The translations under genes were made by a program, and so were the position numbers. This document shows, one piece after another, positions 11,880-36,735 of a DNA stretch of 37,590 nt. The DNA lies in assembly GCA_016234115.1 (NCBI GenBank), contig JACRHD010000007.1, positions 1 to 37,590 of the forward strand. Direction: 5' to 3'. Position 1 is the stretch's first letter; each line of letters begins with the position of its first letter. The notes below the pieces were generated by a model. The model was not told the origin of the DNA, did not search any database, and was given only the letters and a program-made list of their open reading frames with translations. This DNA comes from Nitrospirota bacterium (GTDB taxonomy: Bacteria; Nitrospirota; Thermodesulfovibrionia; UBA6902).

Positions 11880-14612
11880 TTGAGCAAATTAGCATTAACC
11901 ATCGACGGAAAAAGCATTCAGACCGCTGAGGGACAAACGGTCCTGAGCGCGGCAAGAGAAAACGGAATCCACATCCCCACCCTCTGTTATCATCCCCGCA
12001 CCAAACAGGCCGGTAAATGCAGGCTTTGTGTGGTCGAAGTCGAAGGCCTGCCGGGTCTGCGCGTCTCCTGTTCGCTTGAAGCAAAGACGGGTATGGTGGT
12101 CCGCACAAATACCGAACAGGTCATCGAAACAAGAAAGATGATCATAGAGCTTTACCTGTCTAACGGGAAACACAACTGCCTGGCCTGCGAGGCCAACGGC
12201 GCCTGCGAGCTTCAGGACGCCGCATACCGCCTCGGCATCGACAAACCGGCTTTCCCGGAGATACCCAAAGACAAGCCTTACGATGATTCATGCCCTATGA
12301 TAATCAGGGACATGAATAAGTGCATCCAGTGTTACCGCTGCATAGAAGCCTGCAACAGCATAGCGGTAAACGACGTGCTGGATATGGGCTTCCGGGGCAG
12401 CAGCATGACCGTTGTATGCGATACGGACAAGCCTATGGGCAAGTCATCCTGCGTTGTATGCGGAGAGTGCGTGCAGCTTTGCCCGACCGGGGCGCTGACA
12501 GAGAAGAAGGCGGTGGGCAAGGGCAGGGCGTGGGAGATGAAAACGATAAAGACCACGTGCGGCTACTGCGGGGTAGGCTGCCAGTTGGACCTGCACGTCA
12601 AAGACAACCGGATCATAAAAGTGACCGGGGCGGAAAATACTGCCCCCAATTACGGCAGCTTATGCGTAAAAGGGAGGTTCGGTTATGATTATGTTCATTC
12701 ACCTGAGCGCCTGAAATCGCCTCTTATAAAAAAAGACGGAAAGTTTGAAGAAGTAAGCTGGGACGAGGCCCTTGATTTCGTGGCAGGCAGGCTGACGGAA
12801 ATCAAAGACAAATATGGCCCCGGGGCCATTGTCGGGATAGGCTGCGCCCGTTCAACGAATGAAAGCAACTACGTCATGATGAAATTTATGCGCGCTGTGA
12901 TCGGGACCAACAATGTGGACCACTGCGCCCGGACCTGACACGCCCCTACCGTGGCCGGTCTGGCCGCAACCCTTGGGGCAGGGGCGATGTCCAATTCCAT
13001 CGGGGAGATCGAAAACTGCCCTGTGCTTTTTGTAATCGGCTCCAATACAACGGAGACGCACCCGGTGATAGCCTCGTGCATGAAGAGGGCCGTAAGAAAA
13101 GGGGGGCAGCTCATTGTCGCCGACCCCAGGAAAATCGCCCTCACACGCTGGGCTGCCAGACACTTCCAGCCCAAAGTGGGGTCTGATATCGCACTGCTTA
13201 ACTCGGTCATGTACGAGATAATCAGAAACGGGTGGCATAATAAAGACTTCATCGAAAACTATACCGAAGGATTTGAAGAACTGAGAAAGGCGGTCGAAGA
13301 TTATCCCCCTGAGCTGGCCTCGAAGATATGCGGACTTGCCCCTGAGGAAATAACGGAGCTCGCGAGGATATTAGGCACAGCAGAAAGGGTCGCTCTCTTT
13401 TATACCCTCGGAATTACAGAGCACGTAACCGGCACGGACAACGTCAAGACCTGCGCCAATCTCCAGATACTGTTAGGCAATATCGGCAAGGAGTCCGCGG
13501 GCGTCAATCCGCTGAGGGGGCAGAACAATGTCCAGGGCGCGTGCGATATGGGCGTGCTGCCTGATGTGTTTACGGGTTATCAGAAATCAGCGAATCCCGA
13601 GGTAAGAAAAAAGTTTGCAAAGGCATGGAACATGGATTCTCTGACGGATACTGAGGGAACAAAAATACCGGCAATGTTTGACGGGATGGTCCACGGCGAT
13701 GTCAGGGCGCTTTATCTTGCCGGAGAAAATGTGGTCATGTCGGAGCCGAACCAGGAGCATACGATCAATTCGCTTAAACACCTCGATCTCCTGATTGTCC
13801 AGGATATCTTCCCAAATGAGACGACTGAATACGCTCATGTGGTCCTTCCGGCGACATGTTTCGCTGAAGCGGACGGGACATTCACGAATACCGAAAGGCG
13901 GGTGCAGAGAGTAAGAAAGGCGGTGGAGCCGCCGGGGCAGGCAAGAGAGGACTGGTGGATCGTAAACGGGATTGCAAAGAGGATGGGACGTGATATGGGG
14001 TATACGTCGTCGGAACAAATCTGGGAGGAAATACGTCAACTGACGCCCAGCATGGGAGGGATCACTTACGGGAGAATTGAACGTCAGGGACTGCAATGGC
14101 CATGTCCTGATTCATCGCATGCAGGGACCTGTTTTCTCTATTGCGATAACGTGTTCCCCTGCGGCAAGGCGCAGTTCAGGCCCGCGCAGTGGCGTCCTGC
14201 TGTTGAAACGCCTGACGCCGAATACCCGTTTGTGCTGACCACAGGCCGGAGGCTGTGGCATTATCACACCGGCACACAGACAAGGAGATCTGCCGGATTT
14301 GAGGACATATTCCCTGAAGAGCTGATAGAAGTCAGCCCGCAGGACGCGGAAAGACTGAAAATTGACAACGGCGAATTTATCATGGCGGTCTCGCGCAGGG
14401 GCCGGGTCAGGGTAAAGGCATGGGTCACCGACAGGGTCCCGCAGGGACTGTGTTTCATGTCCTTTCACTTCCACGAGGCTTGCTCAAACGTGCTGGCGAA
14501 TAATGTGTTCGACCCCGTGACCGCGACCGCCGAGTATAAGGCGTGCGCGATAAGACTGGAAAAAGATAAAATTAAAACACAGAGACACGGAGGCACAGAG
14601 AAGAAATGGTAA
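11880..14612 (+). CDS. fdhA: Selenocysteine formate dehydrogenase catalytic subunit, NuoG-fused
   Basis: A 910-residue protein read through an in-frame UGA (codon 353, 12936-12938) as selenocysteine. From the N terminus: a 2Fe-2S domain (Cys36, 47, 50, 64); a His98-Cys100-Cys103-Cys109 cluster as in NuoG; two 4Fe-4S motifs (Cys148/151/154/158 and Cys191/194/197/201); then the molybdopterin-enzyme 4Fe-4S site (Cys227/230/234/262) and catalytic domain. Around UGA the sequence is DHCART-U-HAPTVAGL, the formate dehydrogenase active site with the conserved His after Sec. It oxidises formate or reduces CO2. The start is TTG 11880 without a strong ribosome site. The last ~12 residues (TQRHGGTEKKW) come from a repeat. 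It is followed by nuoE- and nuoF-like subunits. Confidence 0.95.
12936..12978 (+). promoter_or_regulatory. UGA-Sec codon and bacterial SECIS hairpin
   Basis: Right after the UGA, stem GTGGCC (12951-12956) pairs with GGCCGC (12962-12967) around the loop GGTCT (12957-12961). The outer arms CCCC (12943-12946) and GGGG (12975-12978) extend it. The GGUCU apical loop is the one known in the E. coli fdhF SECIS recognised by SelB. Reading frame continues unbroken on both sides. Confidence 0.9.
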
Positions 14613-17384: not shown

Positions 17385-17927
17385 TTAATCCTTCTTTATC
17401 TTCCTTCTTGCCGCAAACACACCCACCAGGCCGCTGCCGAGAAGCAGCACGGTGGACGGCTCCGGCACGGGATTGACGATGTCTTTTTCGGCAATTCCAA
17501 ACCCGCTGTGCCAGGGATTACCGGTATACGTCCACGCCGGCCCTGTGTCGTTCCAGCCGCCGGTAGCATCATATCCCCAGTTAATCTGGACCCAGTTTGC
17601 AGCATTGCCGTTATTAGGTTCTCCGCCCGCCCAATGTAAATATGTTACAGGTTCGCCGCTTACCCATTCCCATCGGCCCTCCTGAGCGATATCGTTCAGA
17701 CCTATAAAGTGTTCATAACCGAAAGTGTCGAATACCCACGCATCCTCTGCGGCGTCATTAATCGTTACGAGATGCCCGCCCCATGCCATTGCATTTGCCT
17801 CGGCTTGTGTCCAGGTAGCGCCGGAAACCAATTCGTATTCGTGGCCGTTGTATGGTATGGCGAATGCTGAAACGGCAGTTGCGAAAATGGCGACCTGGAT
17901 CAAAAATAGTGTAATAATCTTTCTCAT
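17385..17927 (-). CDS. PEP-CTERM protein with C-type lectin-like domain
   Basis: A 180-residue exported protein. The start is ATG 17927 with GGAGG 6 nt upstream; an upstream in-frame ATG (17984) adds a basic leader before the signal peptide and is rejected. Residues 1-23 are a signal peptide ending SAFA. The body has C-type-lectin fold landmarks: WTQAEANAMAWGGHLVTIND, FIGLNDIAQEGRWEWVSGEP and WAGGEPNNG...ENW-like NWVQI. The tail PVPEPSTVLLLGSGLVGVFA then RRKIKKD is a textbook PEP-CTERM sorting signal for exosortase. It lacks the disulfide cysteines of animal lectins. It is probably an extracellular matrix or surface protein; the ligand is unknown. Confidence 0.9.
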   Translation of the reverse strand: MRKIITLFLIQVAIFATAVSAFAIPYNGHEYELVSGATWTQAEANAMAWGGHLVTINDAAEDAWVFDTFGYEHFIGLNDIAQEGRWEWVSGEPVTYLHWAGGEPNNGNAANWVQINWGYDATGGWNDTGPAWTYTGNPWHSGFGIAEKDIVNPVPEPSTVLLLGSGLVGVFAARRKIKKD

Positions 17928-18199
17928 TCTTTGCCTCCGTGCTTTATATTTAAAATAACTTGAATATTTGACTGAATATAGCAAATTAAATGCCAGGATG
18001 AAACCGTTTGATTATATTGAAATTGTAAAAAGTGGAATAGCAATTGAGATGTAAAATAATTTTATTAGTGTAAAGTTGACCGACTCAGATATGTAACCTA
18101 TTCCGACATTATTAAATCCGGATGACGGCAAGTTCGGGCCTCTGCCGTAACTGATGGACCAGAAGAAAATGTTGGGGATGCACAGAAAGGGAATGTTCG

Positions 18200-23389: not shown

Positions 23390-23396
23390 TGAATCA

Positions 23397-23535
23397 ACAT
23401 AGCAGCCGAAGTCCATTCAAAGAATGGACGCGGGGGACCCAAATGTTGGGGCGTATTTCCCGGTTACCGGGAATAGGGCACTTCCAGGCCCGAGCCCGTC
23501 AGCTAACCTCGCAGGCTTTTGGAAGGGCAATGGCG
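23397..23535 (+). promoter_or_regulatory. c-di-AMP riboswitch (ydaO/yuaA class)
   Basis: Conserved blocks of the ydaO/yuaA aptamer appear in order: GCCGAAGTC (23405-23413), CGCGGGGGACCC, TTGGGGCGTATTTCC, CCCGAGCCCGTCAGCTAACC (23491-23510), TCGCAGGC, then GGAAGG (23521-23526). This class binds cyclic di-AMP and usually turns off potassium-uptake or cell-wall genes. A terminator follows and kup is directly downstream, the classic arrangement. Recognition is from memory of the consensus; a covariance search would confirm it. Confidence 0.93.
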
Positions 23536-25658: not shown

Positions 25659-26834
25659 TCACTGCACTATCTGGTTCATCTCGAATATCGGCAGGAGGAC
25701 CGCGACGACGATGAATCCGACGACCAGGCCCATTGTCAGTATGAGAATAGGTTCGAGGAGGCCGATGGACCTTTGGAGTTTCCGGTCAAACTCGGACTCG
25801 TAGGAATCTGCCGTCTTCCTCAGGACCTCGGCGAGTCTCCCGGTCTGTTCACCGGTGGCGATGATCTGCAAAAGCGTGGGCGGAAAGCCGTCGAGGCTCG
25901 AGGAGAGCTTCGCGCCCTGAGAGACGAGGTCGCGCGCGGCCATTATCCTGTTTTCCAGGACTACGTTGCCTGTGGCGCGTGAAGTAAGCTGCATGGCCCT
26001 TAAGATGGGAAGCCCTCCTGAAAGCAGAAAGGATATCGTCATGGTGAAGCGAAGCATGTACAGGCCCATCAATATACCGGTGGGGTCTTTGAGGAGGACC
26101 CGGTCGATTATATCTTTCCTGTTCTTCGAGACCCGCCTGAACGTAATCACGAGGCCCGCCGCGGCTGTCAGCAGGAGCCACCAGAAATTCTTGAAAACAT
26201 TGCTCACCTGAATCAGAACGATCGTGGCAAAGGGGAGGGCGGCCGAGCTCTCCTCGAATACCTTTGTTATCTTGGGGATGACAAAGGTGAAAAGGAACAT
26301 CACGATGAAGACGCTTACGCATGCCATAAAGAGAGGGTATATGAGGGCGGTCTGGACCTTGTTTTTTATATTGACCTCGGTCTCGAGGAAATCGGCCAAT
26401 TTCATAAGAACATCCGTCAGCGCGCCGCTGCTTTCGCCGGCAGCGACCATGCCCGTATAAAAGTCCTTGAAGATCTCAGGGTGCGCCTGTAAAGCCCTCG
26501 CCAATGACGCGCCTCCGGACACCCTCTCTTTTATGTCTATAAGGACCCCGCTCCACGCGCCTTTCTGTTCTGAAGACAGCGCGCTTATCGCATCCACAAG
26601 GGGCACGCCCGAAGAAAGCAGGGTCGAAAGCCTCCGCGTCAGTCCTGCTAATACCAGGGGGGAATATTTCGTGAAGGGGCCCTTTTTATAAGAAGGCGCT
26701 TCTTCCTTAATTTCCCTGGGGAAGATGCCCAGGGACTTGATCTTCAGGGCCGCGTCTTTCTGGCCGTCCGCTTCGATAACGCCTTCCGTAGCGGAGCCTT
26801 CGGGGTTGTAACCTTTGTATTTAAAAACGGGCAT
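25659..26834 (-). CDS. gspF: Type II secretion inner-membrane platform protein GspF
   Basis: A 391-residue GspF/PilC-family protein. It begins MPVFKYKGYNPEGSATEGVI and contains two homologous T2SSF domains. The first runs through LSTLLSSGVPLVDAISALS and the second through LRFTMTISFLLSGGLPILRAM; three membrane helices include YPLFMACVSVFIVMFLFTFVIP and the last PILILTMGLVVGFIVVAVLLP. It anchors the assembly ATPase and pseudopilus assembly. PilC of type IV pili is similar, but gspC and gspD in the same cluster support secretion. It is separated from gspE by a 92-nt palindromic repeat. No pseudopilin genes follow; a mobile-element remnant does. Confidence 0.93.
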   Translation of the reverse strand: MPVFKYKGYNPEGSATEGVIEADGQKDAALKIKSLGIFPREIKEEAPSYKKGPFTKYSPLVLAGLTRRLSTLLSSGVPLVDAISALSSEQKGAWSGVLIDIKERVSGGASLARALQAHPEIFKDFYTGMVAAGESSGALTDVLMKLADFLETEVNIKNKVQTALIYPLFMACVSVFIVMFLFTFVIPKITKVFEESSAALPFATIVLIQVSNVFKNFWWLLLTAAAGLVITFRRVSKNRKDIIDRVLLKDPTGILMGLYMLRFTMTISFLLSGGLPILRAMQLTSRATGNVVLENRIMAARDLVSQGAKLSSSLDGFPPTLLQIIATGEQTGRLAEVLRKTADSYESEFDRKLQRSIGLLEPILILTMGLVVGFIVVAVLLPIFEMNQIVQ

Positions 26835-26837
26835 AAC

Positions 26838-26928
26838 TCAGCTTTCAGCAATCAGCGATCAGCTTTCAGCAAAAAAAACTTCAATACGCGCCGTTCGGCT
26901 GTATGCTGACAGCTGATAGCTGATTGCT
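26838..26928. repeat. Palindromic repeat (AGCTGATAGCTGA family) between gspE and gspF
   Basis: The left arm has two TCAGCTTTCAGC words (26838-26870), the right arm GCTGACAGCTGATAGCTGAT (26905-26924). They are imperfect reverse complements. The right edge overlaps the gspE stop codon (26927-26929). Confidence 0.8.
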
Positions 26929-28447
26929 ATGTTTCAGTATCTTTCTGCGTCACTCTTAAAACTTCCTCTATCGTCGTGATCCCCTGCAGTATCTTTTCGA
27001 CCGCGTCTTTCTGGAGAGGTTTGAAACCGGATTTTATTACTGCCGTCCTTTTGATGTCATAAGCCTCTTTCCTCTCCACGATCATCGTCCTTATCTCAGG
27101 GGTGATCTCAAGGAATTCATAAATCCCTTTTCTTCCGATATAACCCTTTCCAAGACATTTATCGCATCCTTTGCCGCGATACAGAACGGTAGGCGAAGGC
27201 ACGGCTTCAAGGTAGTCCGTTTCCTGTTTTGAAGGCGCGTACGGTTGCCTGCAGTGCGGGCAGATGACCCTGACCAGTCTCTGCGCGAGAACGCCGATAA
27301 GCGACGACGCGACAAGAAAGGGCTCTATCCCCATATCAATGAGCCTCGTCAGGGCGCTCGGGGCGTCGTTTGTATGCAGGGTGCTCAGCACGAGATGCCC
27401 TGTCAGCGAGGCGTGCACCGCGATCTCGGCGGTCTCCAGGTCCCTTATCTCACCCACCATCATAATGTCGGGGTCCTGCCTGAGAATTGACCTCAGGCCC
27501 GCGGCGAAGGTCAGACCTATTTTGGGATTGACCTGCATCTGCCCAATGCCGCCTAACTGGTATTCAACAGGGTCTTCAACAGTGATGATGTTTCGGTCCT
27601 CGGTATTCAGCGTTAAAAGTGAAGCATAAAGGGTCGTGGTCTTTCCGGAGCCGGTGGGGCCTGTTACGAGCACAATGCCGTTGGGCCTGGAGAGGGCGTT
27701 TTTGAACGAAGTTAGAATGGAATCCGAAAAACCCAGCATCTCAAGACTCAGGACGCCGGACTGCCTGTCAAGGAGCCTGAGGACCGCCCTTTCACCTAAC
27801 GCCGTCGGGATTATCGAGACCCTGATATCGATGTCTTTACCGCCGACAAGGAGCCTTATCCTCCCGTCCTGCGGGAGTCTCTTCTCCGCGATATCGAGCC
27901 CGGCTAATATTTTTATACGCGATATGAGGGCGTCCTGGATGATCTTCGGCGGGCTCAGCACCTTGCGCAGGATGCCGTCCACCCTGAACCTCACGTCCAG
28001 GCCTTTTTCATAGGGCTCCACATGTATGTCGCTCGCCTTTTCCTTCACGGATTCCATCAACAGCGCGTTGAGAAGGCGTATTATCGGCGCCTCTTCGGTG
28101 AGTTCGAGAAGGTCTTTGGGGGATTCAAATTCGGTCGCGACCCTGGAGAGGTCCTCACCCTTGATATCGCCCATGACTTCCGATACCCTGCTGGTCCTGC
28201 TGTAGACCCGGTTAATGGCGTCAAGGATCAGTTCATCCGTCGCGTGGACCGGATGGGGCCTGAGGTCCAGGCGTCTGGCAAGGTCCCTGAGGGCGAATAT
28301 TCCCCGGCTGCCGGATACGGCCGCTATCAACTCGCCGTCCTGCCTTCTCAACGGTAAAAAGACATTTCCTTTTACGAAAGAGAGGGGAAGGCCCTGGAGG
28401 AGGGAAAATTCGATCTCATCATCTGTTATGACTTCAATGGTTTCCAT
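26927..28447 (-). CDS. gspE: Type II secretion ATPase GspE
   Basis: A 506-residue secretion ATPase. An N-terminal regulatory domain (about residues 1-130) is followed by the catalytic core: DIHVEPYEKGLDVRFRVDG, Walker A GPTGSGKTTT, the Asp box TVEDPVEY, Walker B QDPDIMMVGEIRD, the His box TGHLVLSTLHTNDA, and a zinc-binding tetracysteine (CPHC and CDKC) near residue 400-430. It powers pseudopilus assembly at the inner membrane with GspF. ATG 28447 lies 29 nt past the gspD stop codon. The stop codon falls at the edge of a palindromic repeat. Confidence 0.96.
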   Translation of the reverse strand: METIEVITDDEIEFSLLQGLPLSFVKGNVFLPLRRQDGELIAAVSGSRGIFALRDLARRLDLRPHPVHATDELILDAINRVYSRTSRVSEVMGDIKGEDLSRVATEFESPKDLLELTEEAPIIRLLNALLMESVKEKASDIHVEPYEKGLDVRFRVDGILRKVLSPPKIIQDALISRIKILAGLDIAEKRLPQDGRIRLLVGGKDIDIRVSIIPTALGERAVLRLLDRQSGVLSLEMLGFSDSILTSFKNALSRPNGIVLVTGPTGSGKTTTLYASLLTLNTEDRNIITVEDPVEYQLGGIGQMQVNPKIGLTFAAGLRSILRQDPDIMMVGEIRDLETAEIAVHASLTGHLVLSTLHTNDAPSALTRLIDMGIEPFLVASSLIGVLAQRLVRVICPHCRQPYAPSKQETDYLEAVPSPTVLYRGKGCDKCLGKGYIGRKGIYEFLEITPEIRTMIVERKEAYDIKRTAVIKSGFKPLQKDAVEKILQGITTIEEVLRVTQKDTET

Positions 28448-28476: not shown

Positions 28477-30414
28477 TCAGGGTTGCCTGTCACTGTTAAT
28501 CCTGACTTTATAATTCGGCTCCGCGTAAAGCACCTCCGGAAGCGCCGTGAACTCTTTTATGGCGGCCTCTACATCATGGGCCGGTCCGAGGTTTATATGA
28601 TAAATGTTGAGCTCTTGAAAATACTTTATGACCGTCGCCTCTTTTTGGGCGATGATTTCCGCGGCCCTGTCCCTCGATACTTCCTCCCTGAATCTCACCA
28701 TGAGCTCTCCCGGACTGTAGGACTGCTCGCGCATGGAAAATTCCCTGTGTTTATCAGCCGTGATTTTTGTCAGCTGCTCCGACTCCTTGACCACGTGCGG
28801 GGAAAGGAATACGAGGAGGTTTGTCTTGTTCTTTGACGTATTTTTAAATTTGAAGAGCCAGCCCAGGACCGGGATGTCTCCAAGCACGGGCATCTTGGCT
28901 ACATTCTCCTCATCCCTTTCCTGCATGAGTCCGCCGATGACGACAGTGCGTCCGTCCTTGACGACTACGGAGGTCTTTGTCGAGCGCTTGGTTGTAGTAG
29001 GTCCTACCGTGGTCAGTATGCTTTCGGTGGTCTCCTTCAGGGCCGAGATCTCCTGGTAAATGTCGAGCTTTACGTAATCCCCTTCAGTTATCTGCGGGGT
29101 AAGCCTGAGGGTTATGCCGACGTCTCTCCTCTCTATGGAGCTCAGGACCGTATTCGTGGTGGTTACGTCGCGCTCTCTCTTTGAAATGAAAGGCACGTTC
29201 TCACCCACTATTATCTCGGCCTCCTCATTATCGGATGTGAGGATCTGGGGAGTGGAAAGGACGTTGACGGCGTCCCTGAAATCGTTCAGGCTGAAAAGGG
29301 CCGCAAACCCCGGAGACGTAAGGGTCTGGGTGGTGACTGTCCCGGATGAAGATATGGAAGTTACGGGGATGTCGAGGAAATTTCCCATACCCCCCGCTGA
29401 AAATCCGGTCAGGCCGTTGATAATGGAAAGCATGGTGGTCGTGCTCAGGTTCCCGAAACCGCCTATGAAGACCGGTTCATTATTGTGTTCCGCGGTCGCC
29501 CTCCATTTGGTCCCCAATTCCTTCAGCTTGTCTATGGAAGCCTCGATGATCATGGCCTCCACGTACACCTGTTTTCTCCTCTTGTCTAACATCCTGATGA
29601 CGCCCGCGATATTTTCATAATCGGACGGCGGGGCGATAATGATAAGCGAGTTGGTGCTCTTGTCCGGCATTATGCTGAACTGCGGGGCGGGCTCGGGCGC
29701 GGCGCCCTTCTGCCTGTCACGCGCTGCCTTTGAAGCCGTCTGCATGGTCTTGACCATTCCTTCGAGGACCTTCGCGAGGTCCGTCGCGTCGGCGTTCTCG
29801 AGGAAATAGACGTTGATCTTTATCTGTTCCTCCTGCGCCGACGGCTGGTCGATAAGTTTCAGGATCGCCACGATTTTTTCGATGTTGATCGCCGAATCGA
29901 CAACAAGCAGCAGATTGCCGGGACCGAAGGCGGATATGTGTCCGTCCCTCGAAACGACGGGACGCAGGAAGGCAATAGTGTCATCGGCCTTGATATGCTG
30001 GGTCGGTATCAGTTTTGTTATGTAGGCCTCGTTTACCGGGATGGTTTCATCAGTGGAGATATTACCTTCCTCCTTGGCCTGGGCGGACGGTATGATTTTA
30101 TATGTCCTGGGTCCGAGCGGGATAATAGTATAACCCTTCAGGCCCAGAACCGACGTAAAAAGAGTAAAGGACTGGTCGATGGAGAGCTTTGCCGGGGCTA
30201 TGATGGTGATCTTGCCTTTTATTCTCTCGTCAAAAATAAAGTTGACGCCGGATATCTCACTGATGAATTTTATCACCGTAGGTATTTCAACGTCCACGAA
30301 ATTAAAGGCGATGTTTTCAGCGGGCTTCTTTTCTTCAGCAAGCGAGAAGGCGGGACAGGCCGCGATCAAAAAGGTAAAAAATACGGCAAGACAAAAAACC
30401 CTGACAGTTTTCAT
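28477..30414 (-). CDS. gspD: Type II secretin GspD with C-terminal subtilase-propeptide-like domain
   Basis: A 645-residue outer-membrane secretin. ATG 30414 is chosen for its position directly before a signal peptide (KTVRVFCLAVFFTFLIAA) and AAAGG 7 nt upstream; ATG 30447 adds 11 residues. The N0 domain (FNFVDVEIPTVIKFISEISG), N1-N3 domains and the secretin barrel (QVYVEAMIIEASIDKLKELG, PQILTSDNEEAEIIVGENVP, VVKDGRTVVIGGLMQE, LLVFLSPHVV) are in normal order. After the barrel, residues ~567-641 (SPGELMVRFREEVS, LNIYHINL, LPEVLYAEPNYKV) look like a fervidolysin-type subtilase N-terminal prodomain. That is not a normal part of GspD. Confidence 0.93.
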   Translation of the reverse strand: MKTVRVFCLAVFFTFLIAACPAFSLAEEKKPAENIAFNFVDVEIPTVIKFISEISGVNFIFDERIKGKITIIAPAKLSIDQSFTLFTSVLGLKGYTIIPLGPRTYKIIPSAQAKEEGNISTDETIPVNEAYITKLIPTQHIKADDTIAFLRPVVSRDGHISAFGPGNLLLVVDSAINIEKIVAILKLIDQPSAQEEQIKINVYFLENADATDLAKVLEGMVKTMQTASKAARDRQKGAAPEPAPQFSIMPDKSTNSLIIIAPPSDYENIAGVIRMLDKRRKQVYVEAMIIEASIDKLKELGTKWRATAEHNNEPVFIGGFGNLSTTTMLSIINGLTGFSAGGMGNFLDIPVTSISSSGTVTTQTLTSPGFAALFSLNDFRDAVNVLSTPQILTSDNEEAEIIVGENVPFISKRERDVTTTNTVLSSIERRDVGITLRLTPQITEGDYVKLDIYQEISALKETTESILTTVGPTTTKRSTKTSVVVKDGRTVVIGGLMQERDEENVAKMPVLGDIPVLGWLFKFKNTSKNKTNLLVFLSPHVVKESEQLTKITADKHREFSMREQSYSPGELMVRFREEVSRDRAAEIIAQKEATVIKYFQELNIYHINLGPAHDVEAAIKEFTALPEVLYAEPNYKVRINSDRQP

Positions 30415-30467
30415 AGAATGGCCTTTCTTTCCTGCGTTCATATTCATAATATTTGCTTAGCTTGCAT

Positions 30468-30490: not shown

Positions 30491-30567
30491 ACTCTTAACT
30501 CCTGACTCTTAACTCCTGACTCTTAACTCTTAACTCTTAACTCTTAACTCTTAACTCTTAACTCTTA
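30491..30567 (-). repeat. Heptanucleotide tandem repeat, 11 units of ACTCTTA
   Basis: Eleven 7-nt units (plus-strand ACTCTTA, two reading ACTCCTG). The last unit supplies the TAA stop codon of gspC. An array of the same heptamer in the opposite orientation is at 34384-34432. Confidence 0.95.
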
Positions 30568-31458
30568 TTTTATCCGGTAGCTCATAGACATATTTTGTCC
30601 GCCCCTTATTATATCAAGATTGACGTTATTCATCCCCCTCAACGCGGACATGGCCTGTATCGCGACCTCGGCGTTTGAGATTTCCAGATCATTTATCTTC
30701 AGCAGGACATCGCCGTTCCTCAGACCGAGACTGTGATAAATCCCGCCGGGAATCACCTCGCTGATCGAGAACCCCTCCTGTTTGCCGTTTTTTATATTGG
30801 GAAGCAGCCGCGCGTCGGTGAGAATCTGTTCAGGATTATCAAGGGATTTCTGTATCCTCCGGCTGTCAAGAATATATTCCCGTTCACCTACTTTCCTGGC
30901 AAAGGGACCCGGCTGCGCGGGCTCCTTGATCTGCTTCTGGTCCTGCAGCGGTTCAATGGCCGTATCAGGTATCGAGACTGTAAAGGTCGCGCCGTTCTTC
31001 TCTATTACCGCGGACGCATGCTCTATCTTCTTCAGGACTCCGTAATCAAAGACCCTGTCTCCAAGGGCGAAGACCTGCTGCTGCACCGGCGTCTGTGCGC
31101 TGTCCTCGAAAATTGCGTAACCGAGTCTTCCGGACCCGAGGGCTGTCCCCATGAGGACCAGGTTTGTAACCGGGACGTCAGGCGACTCTGTCTCCTCAGT
31201 CCGGGACACGGTGATGGGATAAAGTTTTCCAGGCGCCCCGAAGGGATTTTTTTCAAGGATCGGGGCATACTGCATGAGGTCTTTTTTAAGGGTGGGCTGC
31301 CGGACATTCGATCTGTCTTTGCTGCCGGCGTCCGGCGGCGGCTTTTTTGTCATGGAGACGCTGATGACGTTACGGGTCAGAAGGAGCGCGGCCGCCAATA
31401 TGAAAACCGACAGCAGGTAGTTAATTAAACGGAGCTTCCTTACGGAAAAGTCAAGCAT
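30565..31458 (-). CDS. gspC: Type II secretion protein GspC
   Basis: A 297-residue bitopic inner-membrane protein. A short cytoplasmic N terminus and one membrane helix (INYLLSVFILAAALLL, residues 12-28) are followed by the homology region (LVLMGTALGSGRLGYAIFED, FALGDRVFDYGVLKKI). A C-terminal PDZ domain runs from about residue 205 to 297 (ISEVIPGGIYHSLGLRNGDV, LKINDLEI, DIIRGGQ). GspC links the inner-membrane platform to the secretin periplasmic domains and helps recruit substrates. It is the first gene of the minus-strand gsp cluster and is divergent from the secreted-protein genes. Its stop codon is inside the heptamer array. Confidence 0.92.
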   Translation of the reverse strand: MLDFSVRKLRLINYLLSVFILAAALLLTRNVISVSMTKKPPPDAGSKDRSNVRQPTLKKDLMQYAPILEKNPFGAPGKLYPITVSRTEETESPDVPVTNLVLMGTALGSGRLGYAIFEDSAQTPVQQQVFALGDRVFDYGVLKKIEHASAVIEKNGATFTVSIPDTAIEPLQDQKQIKEPAQPGPFARKVGEREYILDSRRIQKSLDNPEQILTDARLLPNIKNGKQEGFSISEVIPGGIYHSLGLRNGDVLLKINDLEISNAEVAIQAMSALRGMNNVNLDIIRGGQNMSMSYRIK

Positions 31459-31735: not shown

Positions 31736-34378
31736 ATGATGAAAGGGAAAATATCAAAAGGGGTTGCGAGAGTTTTTGCGGTACTTATAGTGCTGTTGAG
31801 CATTTTTTCGCAGGGGGTCCTGGCGGCAATCCCGCAGACGATCAACTATCAGGGGTTTCTGACGGAGATGGACGGGACGCCGGTAAACAATGCGGCGGCG
31901 CAGATGAGGTTCTCATTGCATGACTCGCTGACTGCCGGGAACGAGTTGTGGAATGAAAAGCAGACGTTAAATATCCAGAACGGGATTTACAATGTTGTCC
32001 TCGGTTCAGCTTCGGCATTTCCTCCGGCGCTTGATTTCAGCGCGCAATATTATCTCGAAGTGGCGGTATACGATACGGTTACTTCTTTATTTGAAACACT
32101 TTCGCCGAGGCAGCCGTTGACAAGCGTTCCTTACGCGATGAGGGCCGCAAGCGCAGATATCGCCGTCAGTGTCTCGGGCAGCGCTATCGCGGGCGCTTCT
32201 ATTACTCCCGACAAGCTTGCCAACATTTGCAGTGAAGGCGAAGCCCTGGTGATGACCGCAAACGGCTGGGTGTGCGGGAAGGTAGTTTCTCAGGTATGTT
32301 CCCCCGGCGACTTTATTAATTGCTATGCAGGGCCTGACGGGACGATGAATATTGGTATTTGTAAATCAGGCACTCGCAGATGCAATGCCGCCGGAACAGG
32401 CTTTGGAGAGTGTACGGGGCAGACACTGCCTGCCGCAGAAATTTGCGATGACCTTGATAATGACTGCAATGGATTAGTTGATGATGCGCCGGGCTCGACA
32501 GTATGGTATCCGGATAATGACAATGACGGTTACGGGGACCAGTCAGCAGGAATCATGAAATGCACTCAGCCTTCGGGATACATAGAAACGGGCAATGACT
32601 GTGATGACGGGCTGTCTTCGGTATATCCGGGAGCCGGTGAAGCATGCGACGGCCTTGACAACGACTGCGACGGCTCCACGGATGAAAGCTGTGTCGATAC
32701 TGCCTGCTTTGCCCAGGAGCTGGACATGCTCAACAGTTGCTTCACAACCTGCGGAAGCAATTTTGTATGTCAGCAGGCCTGCCTGTCTTCAGTATCTCAG
32801 ACGTGCGGGTACGCGTTCACTAATCTTGTCATGTGCTCTGTAGGTTCGGGGTGTAATATGGAACCGAATTGCATGATGGAGAGCTGCCCCAATCAGTGGA
32901 TTAATATTTTCGGATCAATGTGTGATAACGGGGACACAAAGGTCTGCGGGTCGGACATAGGGGCGTGCCGTCAGGGCGCTGAGACCTGCGTCAACGGCGC
33001 CTGGGACCATACGTGCGCCGGTGAGATCGCGCCCGTTGCCGAGATATGCGGAGACGGAATTGACAACGACTGCAACGGAACAACTGACGAAGCATGGGTC
33101 TGCAGCGACAATGACGGCGACGGTTTTATTGGAAGAGACGACTGCGATGACGCTGATTTGAATATTTATCCGGGAGCTGTGGAGGTATGCGACGGCATTG
33201 ATAACAACTGTGACGGGCAGACGGATGAGGGCGTGACGACCCAATACTTCATCGATCGCGATGGAGATGGTCACGGGGACCCATCCGAAAGTATCGAGGC
33301 CTGTTCTCCGCCGTCATTTGAATACGTATCCGATTCGACCGACTGTGATGATTCCAGAAGTGATATTTATATCGGCGCTGATGAAGTCTGCGACGGCCTG
33401 GATAATAATTGCAACGGGCAGACCGACGACAACTGCTACTCATGCGGTAACGGCATTTGTGAAGCGGATAAAGGAGAAACACTTGCCAAATGCGAGTTCG
33501 ACTGCGCTGTTTGCGGCGACGGCATATTGCAGTCGTCAGAGCAGTGTGAAGACGGCAATGCGGACAACAACGACGGCTGCAGCTCAACCTGCAGGGATGA
33601 ATACTGCGGCGACGGCATTGTTCAGTCGAATGAAGAATGTGATGACGGCAGCACCATGAACAATGACGGCTGCAACTACATCTGCAAGAGAGAGTACTGC
33701 GGCGACGGGATACAGCAGTCCGGTATCGGTGAAGTTTGCGATGACGGCAATGCTGTCAACGGAGACGGGTGCAATACACTGTGTCAGCTTGATTGCATCA
33801 ACAATTCAACCATTCTATGCGGCCCATCCGATGTGGGTGAGTGCAGACGGGGCACGCAGACATGTATTGACGGAACGTGGAGCGAATGTATCGGAGAGAT
33901 CGTCCCCTCAGCGGAGATATGTGACGGACTTGATAATAACTGCGACGGGCAGGTGGATGAGGGATGTCTGCAGGCGCAGGAGTTGATCTGTGATGACGGT
34001 ATTGATAACGATGGAGACAGTCAGACCGATTGTGCCGATGGTGATTGCGCATCTGCCGGAAACTGCCTTGCGTCAATGTGCAATGATGCCGTGAAGAACG
34101 GCAATGAGACAGACACTGATTGCGGCGGCAGTTGTTCTAAATGCGTTGAAGGGAAAAGATGTCTCGGCTATACAGACTGTGCAAGCGGGGTTTGCTACAA
34201 CGGCTTCTGTGCTTTTCCTACCTGCATGGATATGGTAAAGAACGGCAGTGAGACGGACATCGACTGCGGAGGGGGCGTCTGCCCTAAATGCAGTATCGGC
34301 GAGGATTGTATTGTAGCTCCTGATTGTTCAAGCGGAAATTGCGCCAACAATATTTGTCAGGCTGCTGCGGGACAGTGA
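31736..34378 (+). CDS. Large secreted Cys-rich protein with MopE-like metal-binding repeats
   Basis: An 880-residue exported protein. Signal peptide residues 1-30 (VARVFAVLIVLLSIFSQGVLA). Residues ~31-150 form a domain with INYQGFLTEMDGTPV, GIYNVVLGS and LSPRQPLTSVPYAMR, shared with the protein at 34684. The rest is Cys/Asp-rich. Six CDGLDN(D/N)C(D/N)G-type units followed by TDE/VDD match the putative metal-binding motif named after MopE. Between them are thrombospondin-3-like Ca-binding runs (DNDNDGYGDQ, DRDGDGHGDP). Three CGDGI...CDDGN..N.DGC...C units match the myxococcal Cys-rich repeat. Two NG.ETD.DCGG units end the protein. SD AAAGGAGAGG precedes ATG 31736. It is divergent from gspC, so it is a candidate type II substrate. 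Confidence 0.85.
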   Translation: MMKGKISKGVARVFAVLIVLLSIFSQGVLAAIPQTINYQGFLTEMDGTPVNNAAAQMRFSLHDSLTAGNELWNEKQTLNIQNGIYNVVLGSASAFPPALDFSAQYYLEVAVYDTVTSLFETLSPRQPLTSVPYAMRAASADIAVSVSGSAIAGASITPDKLANICSEGEALVMTANGWVCGKVVSQVCSPGDFINCYAGPDGTMNIGICKSGTRRCNAAGTGFGECTGQTLPAAEICDDLDNDCNGLVDDAPGSTVWYPDNDNDGYGDQSAGIMKCTQPSGYIETGNDCDDGLSSVYPGAGEACDGLDNDCDGSTDESCVDTACFAQELDMLNSCFTTCGSNFVCQQACLSSVSQTCGYAFTNLVMCSVGSGCNMEPNCMMESCPNQWINIFGSMCDNGDTKVCGSDIGACRQGAETCVNGAWDHTCAGEIAPVAEICGDGIDNDCNGTTDEAWVCSDNDGDGFIGRDDCDDADLNIYPGAVEVCDGIDNNCDGQTDEGVTTQYFIDRDGDGHGDPSESIEACSPPSFEYVSDSTDCDDSRSDIYIGADEVCDGLDNNCNGQTDDNCYSCGNGICEADKGETLAKCEFDCAVCGDGILQSSEQCEDGNADNNDGCSSTCRDEYCGDGIVQSNEECDDGSTMNNDGCNYICKREYCGDGIQQSGIGEVCDDGNAVNGDGCNTLCQLDCINNSTILCGPSDVGECRRGTQTCIDGTWSECIGEIVPSAEICDGLDNNCDGQVDEGCLQAQELICDDGIDNDGDSQTDCADGDCASAGNCLASMCNDAVKNGNETDTDCGGSCSKCVEGKRCLGYTDCASGVCYNGFCAFPTCMDMVKNGSETDIDCGGGVCPKCSIGEDCIVAPDCSSGNCANNICQAAAGQ

Positions 34379-34683: not shown

Positions 34684-36735
34684 ATGACACTTCAGAAAGC
34701 GGCAAGACTCACAGCGGGATTAGCAGTTGCGGCAGTAATAATATTGATCAGCGGATTGGCCTTTGCAGAGGCGCCCAGGACAATCAACTATCAGGGATAT
34801 CTGACAGACTCGACCGGCAATCCGGTGGATGGTGTTGTGGACATGACTTTCAGGATTTATAACGTCCCTGTGGGCTCTAACGAGCTTTGGGTGGAAACAC
34901 AGGGCAGCGTACAGGTAAAAAGCGGCATTTATAACATTGTCCTCGGATCGGTCAGTTCAATGAGCCGTCTGACATTCAATGAGCAATATTATCTGGGCGT
35001 CCAGACCGGGGCCGACGAAGAGATGTCTCCACGCCAGCCATTGACGAGCGCTCCTTATTCCTTCAGGTCGCTGTGGACTGACAATGCCGACATGGTTGAC
35101 GGGAAGCACTACAGCGATATAAGTGCGGATATATCCTCGGAAGCGGCCGCGAGACAGGCCGCTGATACAACTGTTCAAAACAATATCGACAATGAAGCAG
35201 CGGCAAGATCAAATGCCGATGCTACTCTGACAAGTAATCTCAATGCGGAGGCGGCTGCGAGACAGGCTGCCGACACGACTCTTCAGACCAATATTGATAA
35301 CGAAAGTGCGGCAAGAGCAAACGCCGATGCTGCTCTGACAGGCAATCTCAACGCGGAGGCGGCTGCGAGACATGCTGCCGACACGACTCTTCAGACCAAT
35401 ATTGATAATGAAAGTGCGGCAAGATCAAACGCCGATGCTACTCTGACAAGTAATCTCAATGCGGAGTCATCAGCAAGACAGGCCGGCGATAATTCACTTC
35501 AGACGACAAAACAGAACCTGATAACCGGCGGCTGCGATTTGGGAAGCAGCATACGTCTCATAAATACCAGCGGGACGGTTGTCTGCGAGACGGATGACGG
35601 CATCACATCTGAATCCGATCCTCAGGTCGGCAGTAATACGGCAAATTATGTCCCGAAATGGAACGGCTCGGCGTTAGTATCGGGAGACATATACGACAAT
35701 GTATATGTCGGGATCGGGACAACCAGCCCGACAGCCAAACTCCATATAGCGGGAGGAAATTTGTTCGTCGAAGATAATCAACCTAACATTATTCTCAACA
35801 CGACAGATACGTTTCAGTCTTCGGTAGTGTTCAGGGCCGCAGGATCGGACAAGTTCGCAATAAGCACCGATATAGGAGGCTATTCAATAAATAATTTTGC
35901 GATATCGGACGCGTCCGGCGCTGGGGCCGCGATTGCACGGTTTTTTATAGATCCAAACGGCAATGTCGGGATCGGCACAACGACTCCCTCAGCCAGGCTC
36001 CATGTCGCAGGCACTGCAAAGGCCACGAATTTTGAAGGCGGGGATTCGGATGGAGATCTGAATATGATTAGAGATGTCAGTAGTTCGTATGCCAATGCGT
36101 GGTTCCGGGTGTTTACCAACGGCACTGCTATCGAACAGTTGCGCATCGGCGACGGCGATGAGGCGACCATTTTAGGTGACGGGGTATTTTCAGCCAACGG
36201 CATTGACTATGCCGAGGCCTTCAAAATAGCTGACCAAACCCTTGAGGCCGGCGACGTCGTAGTCCTTAATCTGAGACAGCCTGAATTCATCCAGAGGTCA
36301 AAGAGGCCCTATGCTTCAAATCTCGCAGGCGTCATTTCAGGTAAACCTGGATTCCTGACCGGACAGAGCTTCGATGCAGAAGAACAGGCGGACCCGCAAA
36401 CAGCCGAGCTCAGGCGTCAGGCCAGGATCAAGGGAGACCACGATGAGGATAAACGGTTGACAGGTGAGCTTCAGGAGAATGTCAGGCGGCAGTATCGCGC
36501 AGTCGCTCTTGCCGGAAGAGTGCCTGTGAAAGTGGACGGGGCCAAGGGCCCGATCAAACCCGGCGACCGGCTTACTTCGAGTCCGACACCGGGACACGCG
36601 ATGGCAATGAAGGAAGCAGGGCAGTCTATCGGGATCGCTCTGGAGGCATGGGAAAACGACGGACGCGGCACTATACTGGTTCTTATTCAGCCGGGCTGGT
36701 GGAGTCCGCTGGATGATGACAGGAAAGACTGGTAG
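34684..36735 (+). CDS. Secreted repeat protein sharing N-terminal domain with upstream gene
   Basis: A 683-residue exported protein. Signal peptide to about residue 28 (GLAVAAVIILISGLAFA). Residues ~30-135 repeat the domain of the gene at 31736 (TINYQGYLTDSTGNPV, GIYNIVLGS, SPRQPLTSAPYSFR). Residues 153-278 are seven 18-residue repeats, probably a coiled-coil stalk. Then come fibre-like units (VGIGTTSPTAKLHIAGG, VGIGTTTPSARLHVAG) and a C-terminal domain with NGIDYAEAF, AGDVVVLNL, KPGDRLTSSPTPGHAM and GRGTILVLIQPGWW. No predicted enzyme site. SD AAGGAGAGACAGGAG precedes ATG 34684. Probably surface or extracellular; likely a secretion substrate by context. Confidence 0.85.
   Translation: MTLQKAARLTAGLAVAAVIILISGLAFAEAPRTINYQGYLTDSTGNPVDGVVDMTFRIYNVPVGSNELWVETQGSVQVKSGIYNIVLGSVSSMSRLTFNEQYYLGVQTGADEEMSPRQPLTSAPYSFRSLWTDNADMVDGKHYSDISADISSEAAARQAADTTVQNNIDNEAAARSNADATLTSNLNAEAAARQAADTTLQTNIDNESAARANADAALTGNLNAEAAARHAADTTLQTNIDNESAARSNADATLTSNLNAESSARQAGDNSLQTTKQNLITGGCDLGSSIRLINTSGTVVCETDDGITSESDPQVGSNTANYVPKWNGSALVSGDIYDNVYVGIGTTSPTAKLHIAGGNLFVEDNQPNIILNTTDTFQSSVVFRAAGSDKFAISTDIGGYSINNFAISDASGAGAAIARFFIDPNGNVGIGTTTPSARLHVAGTAKATNFEGGDSDGDLNMIRDVSSSYANAWFRVFTNGTAIEQLRIGDGDEATILGDGVFSANGIDYAEAFKIADQTLEAGDVVVLNLRQPEFIQRSKRPYASNLAGVISGKPGFLTGQSFDAEEQADPQTAELRRQARIKGDHDEDKRLTGELQENVRRQYRAVALAGRVPVKVDGAKGPIKPGDRLTSSPTPGHAMAMKEAGQSIGIALEAWENDGRGTILVLIQPGWWSPLDDDRKDW
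35140..35517 (+). repeat. Seven 54-bp coding repeats (18 residues each)
   Basis: Units alternate between (E)AAARQAADTTLQTNIDN and (E)SAARSNADATLTSNLNA types, giving a 108-bp higher-order period with near-identical DNA. They encode the stalk of the protein at 34684 and could expand or contract by recombination. Confidence 0.9.

Follow-up and report, generated by a model that had tools for sequence, protein, structure and literature searches.

A subtilase prodomain, probably captured, at the C terminus of the T2SS secretin GspD in the class Thermodesulfovibrionia

The window analysed here is a stretch of 37,590 nucleotides from a Nitrospirota bacterium of the class Thermodesulfovibrionia (contig JACRHD010000007.1), and it carries a group of T2SS genes on its minus strand. 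Open reading frame and profile matches identified gspD (28477..30447, minus) as the gene for a 656-residue T2SS secretin with a C-terminal prodomain; its product scored 483 bits against TIGR02517, the GspD equivalog model (cut-off 351), and the Pfam domains N0, Secretin_N and Secretin are all present. The genes adjoining gspD confirm the T2SS context: gspC, encoding T2SSC and PDZ domains, lies directly upstream (30565..31458, minus), and the ATPase gene gspE (26927..28447, minus) and gspF (25659..26834, minus) complete the group downstream. In relatives the same order, C-D-E-F, is followed by pseudopilin genes and further gsp-type genes. Within GspD, the secretin barrel domain (PF00263, residues 393-554; 28786..29271, minus) ends in LLVFLSPHVVKE, which is followed by a predicted S-domain-like charged helix (residues 555-576; 28720..28785, minus) that links the barrel to a 75-residue tail and in which F570 is kept in 67 of 73 relatives. 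The tail contains the motif E643-P644-N645 (28513..28521, minus), and the chain stops 11 residues past N645, without an S8 catalytic domain behind the prodomain.

The sequence-only reading had described a subtilase-propeptide-like domain at this C terminus, and the claim was borne out by Pfam, a PDB profile search, an AlphaFold model and Foldseek. The coordinates given at that time, 28480-28734, correspond to residues 572-656, and the domain proper spans approximately residues 577-650 (28498..28719, minus). In the whole GspD protein, residues 569-645 match PF22148 (Fervidolysin_NPro-like) at E=5e-15, with scores of 56.0-59.7 bits against a cut-off of 21 and 59.7 bits for the tail alone. A profile built from 15 GspD tails and compared with all PDB sequences retrieved just two chains with E below 1, namely the subtilisin E prosegment (E=0.05) and that of BPN' (E=0.1); phmmer with a single tail as the query gave no match in the PDB. 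The AlphaFold model from 68 tails predicts a helix and a βαββαβ fold of the propeptide type, with high confidence in the domain, and the solved structures ranked highest by Foldseek were fervidolysin (1r6v), then the subtilisin prosegments 1spb_P and 1scj_B, at a probability of 1.00 and a best E-value of 1.6e-3, which is modest but usual at 75 residues. Both the PF22148 match and the first rank of 1r6v uphold the likeness to the fervidolysin prodomain that had been proposed. By family and predicted fold, the GspD tail is a subtilase prodomain, probably a captured one; the Pfam profile, the PDB profile and the fold search together rule out a chance resemblance.

A survey of GspD homologues recovered the same fusion in 73 GspDs. 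In a scan of 296 Nitrospirota genomes, the tail was restricted to the class Thermodesulfovibrionia, where it is present in 73 of the 78 GspDs read and absent from 5; in the genomes sampled from other Nitrospirota classes, GspD stops at the usual short helix or at a low-complexity stretch. An assembly error or chimera is ruled out, because dozens of genomes that were assembled independently share the fusion. When mapped on a secretin-core tree, the distribution of the tail required three changes, which fits a single gain, either after family f7 split off or at the base of the class with a loss in f7, and at least two losses, one in G262 and one in the genus of G113 and G217. A prodomain tree (74 columns) placed the GspD tails on one side of a branch and the subtilase prodomains on the other with a support of 80, which is not decisive. 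The tail is under purifying selection, with dN/dS values of 0.06-0.38 in close pairs, but the constraint is weaker than that on the secretin core, for which the closest pairs gave 0.03-0.13. Beyond Nitrospirota, samples from two other phyla were searched, and neither the 291 genomes from the phylum of a deltaproteobacterial-labelled MAG nor the 193 genomes from the phylum of an Omnitrophota MAG yielded the fusion; a 782-residue candidate in G338 turned out to be an S8 protease. In some relatives in the order of the window's genome (L019 and L079:7136-7519), the loop ahead of the second helix of the tail holds an insert of about 31 residues, two of them cysteines.

The residues with which a prodomain meets its protease are largely kept in the tail. 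Over the 73 tails, E643 is retained in 69, P644 in 71, and Asn or Asp at position 645 in 68, and these three positions align with Glu69, Glu70 and Asp71 of the BPN' prosegment. In BPN', Glu69 and Asp71 cap helices of the protease (PMC6993865), and SUB1-ProM, a stand-alone malaria inhibitor that is encoded beside subtilisin genes, has the same Glu/Asn pair (PMC6993865); E643 and N645 thus supply the helix-capping Glu and Asp/Asn of a subtilase prodomain. Furthermore, position +5 from the capping Glu corresponds to P4 in known complexes and is occupied by Val, Ile, Leu or Met in 58 of 73 tails. The commonest tail end lies 8 residues past the Glu (14/73, with 40/73 ending 6-13 residues past it), matching the BPN' prosegment, which ends at Glu69+8; the tail of the window's own GspD reaches +13. 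The side chains of E643 and N645 should have no structural duty in the isolated fold, and that they are conserved nevertheless speaks for a partner, presumably one with exposed helix ends. Additionally, Y616, I599, E638 and F633 are conserved in the tails and absent from subtilase prodomains, the usual His/Asn of which is replaced by I599.

S8 subtilases would be the candidates for such a partner. Complete or near-complete S8 genes are located in the T2SS locus at 8 of 78 gspD loci (L065, L066, L067, L068, L069, L070, L071 and L136; 8 genomes of families f5, f12 and f15), and those counted are always on the operon strand; a fragmentary S8-like open reading frame on the opposite strand in L091 was left out of the count. 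Their positions are immediately upstream of gspC, in the interval from gspE or gspF to the pseudopilin genes, or past the last gsp-type gene, and some loci hold two, one ahead of gspC and one at the far end. Altogether, 11-12 S8 genes were seen in T2SS loci, compared to approximately 1.1 expected by chance in 1.2 Mb, an excess of about 10-fold. In family f12, the E-P-N motif is kept in two genomes with a T2SS-locus S8 gene and the Glu is lost in four relatives without one; it should be noted that no more than one or two evolutionary events underlie this pattern. A test for Glu loss in genomes that lack S8 gave p=0.09, which is suggestive only.

The link between tail and S8 is looser at the level of whole genomes. 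S8 genes are present in 48 of 55 scored tailed genomes, and the raw association with the tail (48/55 vs 17/48, p=5e-8) comes from hand-taken counts, with T2SS presence and kinship as confounders. The remaining 7 of the 55 gave no S8 match, five of these being 99-100% complete (G040, G138, G146, G154 and G170), and the Glu is kept in the tails of 5 of the 7. Conversely, the tail-less G262, G113 and G217 still have S8 genes, so the tail is not needed for having S8, and S8 presence tracks the T2SS as such, since 4 of 5 tail-less T2SS genomes have it. A strict co-occurrence of tail and S8 is ruled out by these exceptions in both directions. Every S8 protein examined, including the operon-linked ones, carries its own prodomain, and this also holds for the two S8 genes of the window's genome, which are on other contigs. 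The neighbouring S8 peptidase lacking a propeptide that had been anticipated was therefore not found among them, and a role of the tail as chaperone for such a protease in the window's genome is ruled out.

Some relatives bear a further domain that helps to locate the tail. Much of family f1 has GspDs in which the tail is continued by a long linker and then a SPOR domain (Pfam 22.6-24.8 bits, cut-off 21). In the family of the window's GspD, the proteins with this arrangement are those of L108:6754-9237, L106, L105, L112, L114, L115, L119, L120, L090, L113 and L117, the assignment being based on Pfam in L106, L108 and L115 and on a sequence motif in the other loci. The window's own GspD has no SPOR domain, and with only 29 bases between the gspD stop and the gspE start there is no room for a SPOR remnant. 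SPOR domains bind peptidoglycan, which places the C terminus of GspD in the periplasm, and published S-domain positions agree with a C terminus on the periplasmic side (PMC6532946). The earlier proposal of a domain acting at the exit gate is thus doubtful, as both the SPOR domains of relatives and the secretin structures in the literature indicate a C terminus that lies in the periplasm, around the barrel and not in the pore; the tails would probably ring the outside of the barrel beneath the outer membrane. Where a linker and SPOR domain follow it in f1, the tail has no free end that could act in a product-like manner.

We consider the leading explanation to be that the captured prodomain still binds subtilases in trans, as a docking and inhibitory site for S8 proteins exported by the T2SS, and assign it a rough probability of 0.45. 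The prodomain would have been fused to GspD once in the ancestry of the class Thermodesulfovibrionia and then kept, and fifteen copies of the tail would hang on the S-domain helices on the periplasmic side, under the outer membrane, where they could dock folded S8 subtilases awaiting export. The open sheet face of the tail would sit on two surface helices of the protease, which E643 and N645 would cap, and the C-terminal strand would point toward the active site, such that the protease is held or kept inactive until its release through the secretin. This reading draws on the family and fold, the cap residues, the P4-like residue, the tail end, the S8 genes in T2SS loci, the f12 pattern and the purifying selection; against it count the tailed genomes without S8, the tail-less genomes with S8, the S8 proteins' own prodomains, the SPOR domains of f1 and the weaker constraint on the tail than on the core. 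The sequence-only reading had likewise offered binding or chaperoning of a secreted subtilase, which gains circumstantial support from the helix-cap residues, from C termini at the position of a processed prodomain and from S8 genes in T2SS operons, whereas its exit-gate and propeptide-less S8 elements do not hold. Extended to the class as a whole, the picture would be of a T2SS with a channel-tethered inhibitor and docking station, whose tail receives active subtilases in the periplasm, silences them and hands them to the pore; we put this forward tentatively, with less assurance than binding itself.

The strongest rival, a serious one although somewhat less probable, is that the prodomain fold has been exapted as a structural module that meets no protease and instead takes over from a pilotin-bound S-domain in assembling the secretin, targeting it to the outer membrane or stabilising the ring, or acts as a rigid platform for additional anchors such as SPOR. 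Retention of the tail in near-complete genomes without S8 would follow naturally, the tail-specific conservation of Y616, I599, E638 and F633 points to a new constraint, and the SPOR domain after the tail in part of f1 shows this end being used for anchoring. A search for AspS-family pilotins found none in 21 relatives, an absence that fits a structural role but was otherwise weighed as neither support nor exclusion, because pilotins are diverse and the lack of one family means little. However, a structural role leaves unexplained both the high conservation of the protease-capping Glu and Asn/Asp and the S8 genes in T2SS loci, and both the same class (G262, G113 and G217) and the remainder of the phylum contain T2SS secretins without a tail.

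Substrates of the T2SS are thought to enter by the secretin N-domains inside the periplasmic vestibule, with the C terminus outside the barrel, and this speaks against a third and unlikely explanation, in which the tail is a receptor that binds a surface common to many T2SS substrates, or released prodomains, for general docking and not inhibition. Such a receptor would account for tails in genomes without S8, and its place on the secretin and the S8 genes in the operons of some lineages are compatible with it, but nothing points to other substrates. Least probable by far is a passive hitch-hiker, that is, a propeptide piece of a neighbouring subtilase gene fused to gspD by accident and tolerated, because dN/dS values well below 1, near-universal retention in a diverse class and a near-invariant motif disfavour it, even if S8 genes beside gspD could have been its source and the tail was lost at least twice.

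Both parts of the fusion are known already, and their combination was not found described. Compared to the prodomains of fervidolysin and subtilisin (PF22148 / MEROPS I9), the GspD copy differs in its place at a secretin C terminus with no catalytic domain behind it. SUB1-ProM, POIA1, the yeast proteinase B inhibitor and SPI-1 likewise have the prodomain fold without its protease; they occur as small free proteins whose inhibition has been measured, whereas the GspD tail is fixed to an outer-membrane pore and any inhibition by it is putative. In Aeromonas, the folding and inhibition of the subtilase ASP are handled by ORF2, a partner encoded next door whose C terminus lies at the active site (PMC5638518), which resembles the handling of subtilases in trans proposed here for the tail; ORF2, however, is a separate protein and not part of a channel, and ASP depends on it, whereas the S8 proteins here carry their own prodomains. 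PulD and EpsD, with their pilotin-binding S-domains, and the pilotin-independent ExeD share the N-domain and secretin architecture and the charged helix after the barrel, but known GspD secretins end after a short S-domain (PMC6532946). Legionella LspD has an N-terminal SPOR domain and was stated in 2022 to be the only T2SS secretin known with one (PMC9239104); in the SPOR-bearing relatives described here, the domain is instead C-terminal and follows the prodomain. Among open-licence papers, no description was found of a secretin-prodomain fusion, of its class-wide retention or of a C-terminal SPOR domain, and an earlier account may exist elsewhere; nor did the papers found include a T2SS secretin that continues into a comparable folded domain past the S-domain. 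By that measure, the tail would be the first folded module described in a T2SS secretin past its S-domain, and no other subtilase prodomain would be known to be tethered to a channel.

It has long been asked how the T2SS recognises its folded substrates, and a prodomain that still binds would provide a direct, testable physical link of the secretin to one cargo class. If it serves as an inhibitor and docking site, the secretion machine would itself provide, in trans, the safeguard against its most hazardous cargo; if the structural alternative is true, a protease prodomain would have been turned into an assembly or anchoring part.

Several other observations were made in the relatives and in the window. 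Small stand-alone prodomain proteins of about 119-141 residues, resembling I9 inhibitors, are encoded at L104:5104-5463, L245 (G337:C105:3845-4084) and L246 (G338:C2:104346-104582) and in G650, G723 and G754; the one at L104 adjoins a giant subtilase, and the GspD of the same genome has lost its tail. In the window, the only break in the reading frame of a formate dehydrogenase-like molybdopterin oxidoreductase (11880-14612, plus) is an in-frame TGA at 12936-12938 (context CARTUHAPTVAGL), and the protein is therefore probably a selenoprotein. A c-di-AMP riboswitch (RF00379, 95.8 bits; 23394-23532, plus) lies at the 5' end of the open reading frame for a Kup potassium transporter, the true start codon of which is probably downstream of the listed 23424. 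Divergent from gspC is the gene for an 880-residue, exported-looking, cysteine-rich protein (31736-34378, plus) with MopE-type metal-binding and DUF4215 repeats, which is a possible T2SS substrate; the next open reading frame (34684-36735, 683 residues) had no Pfam match. Lastly, the gene at 17385-17984 (minus) encodes a protein that combines a C-type lectin domain with a PEP-CTERM sorting signal.
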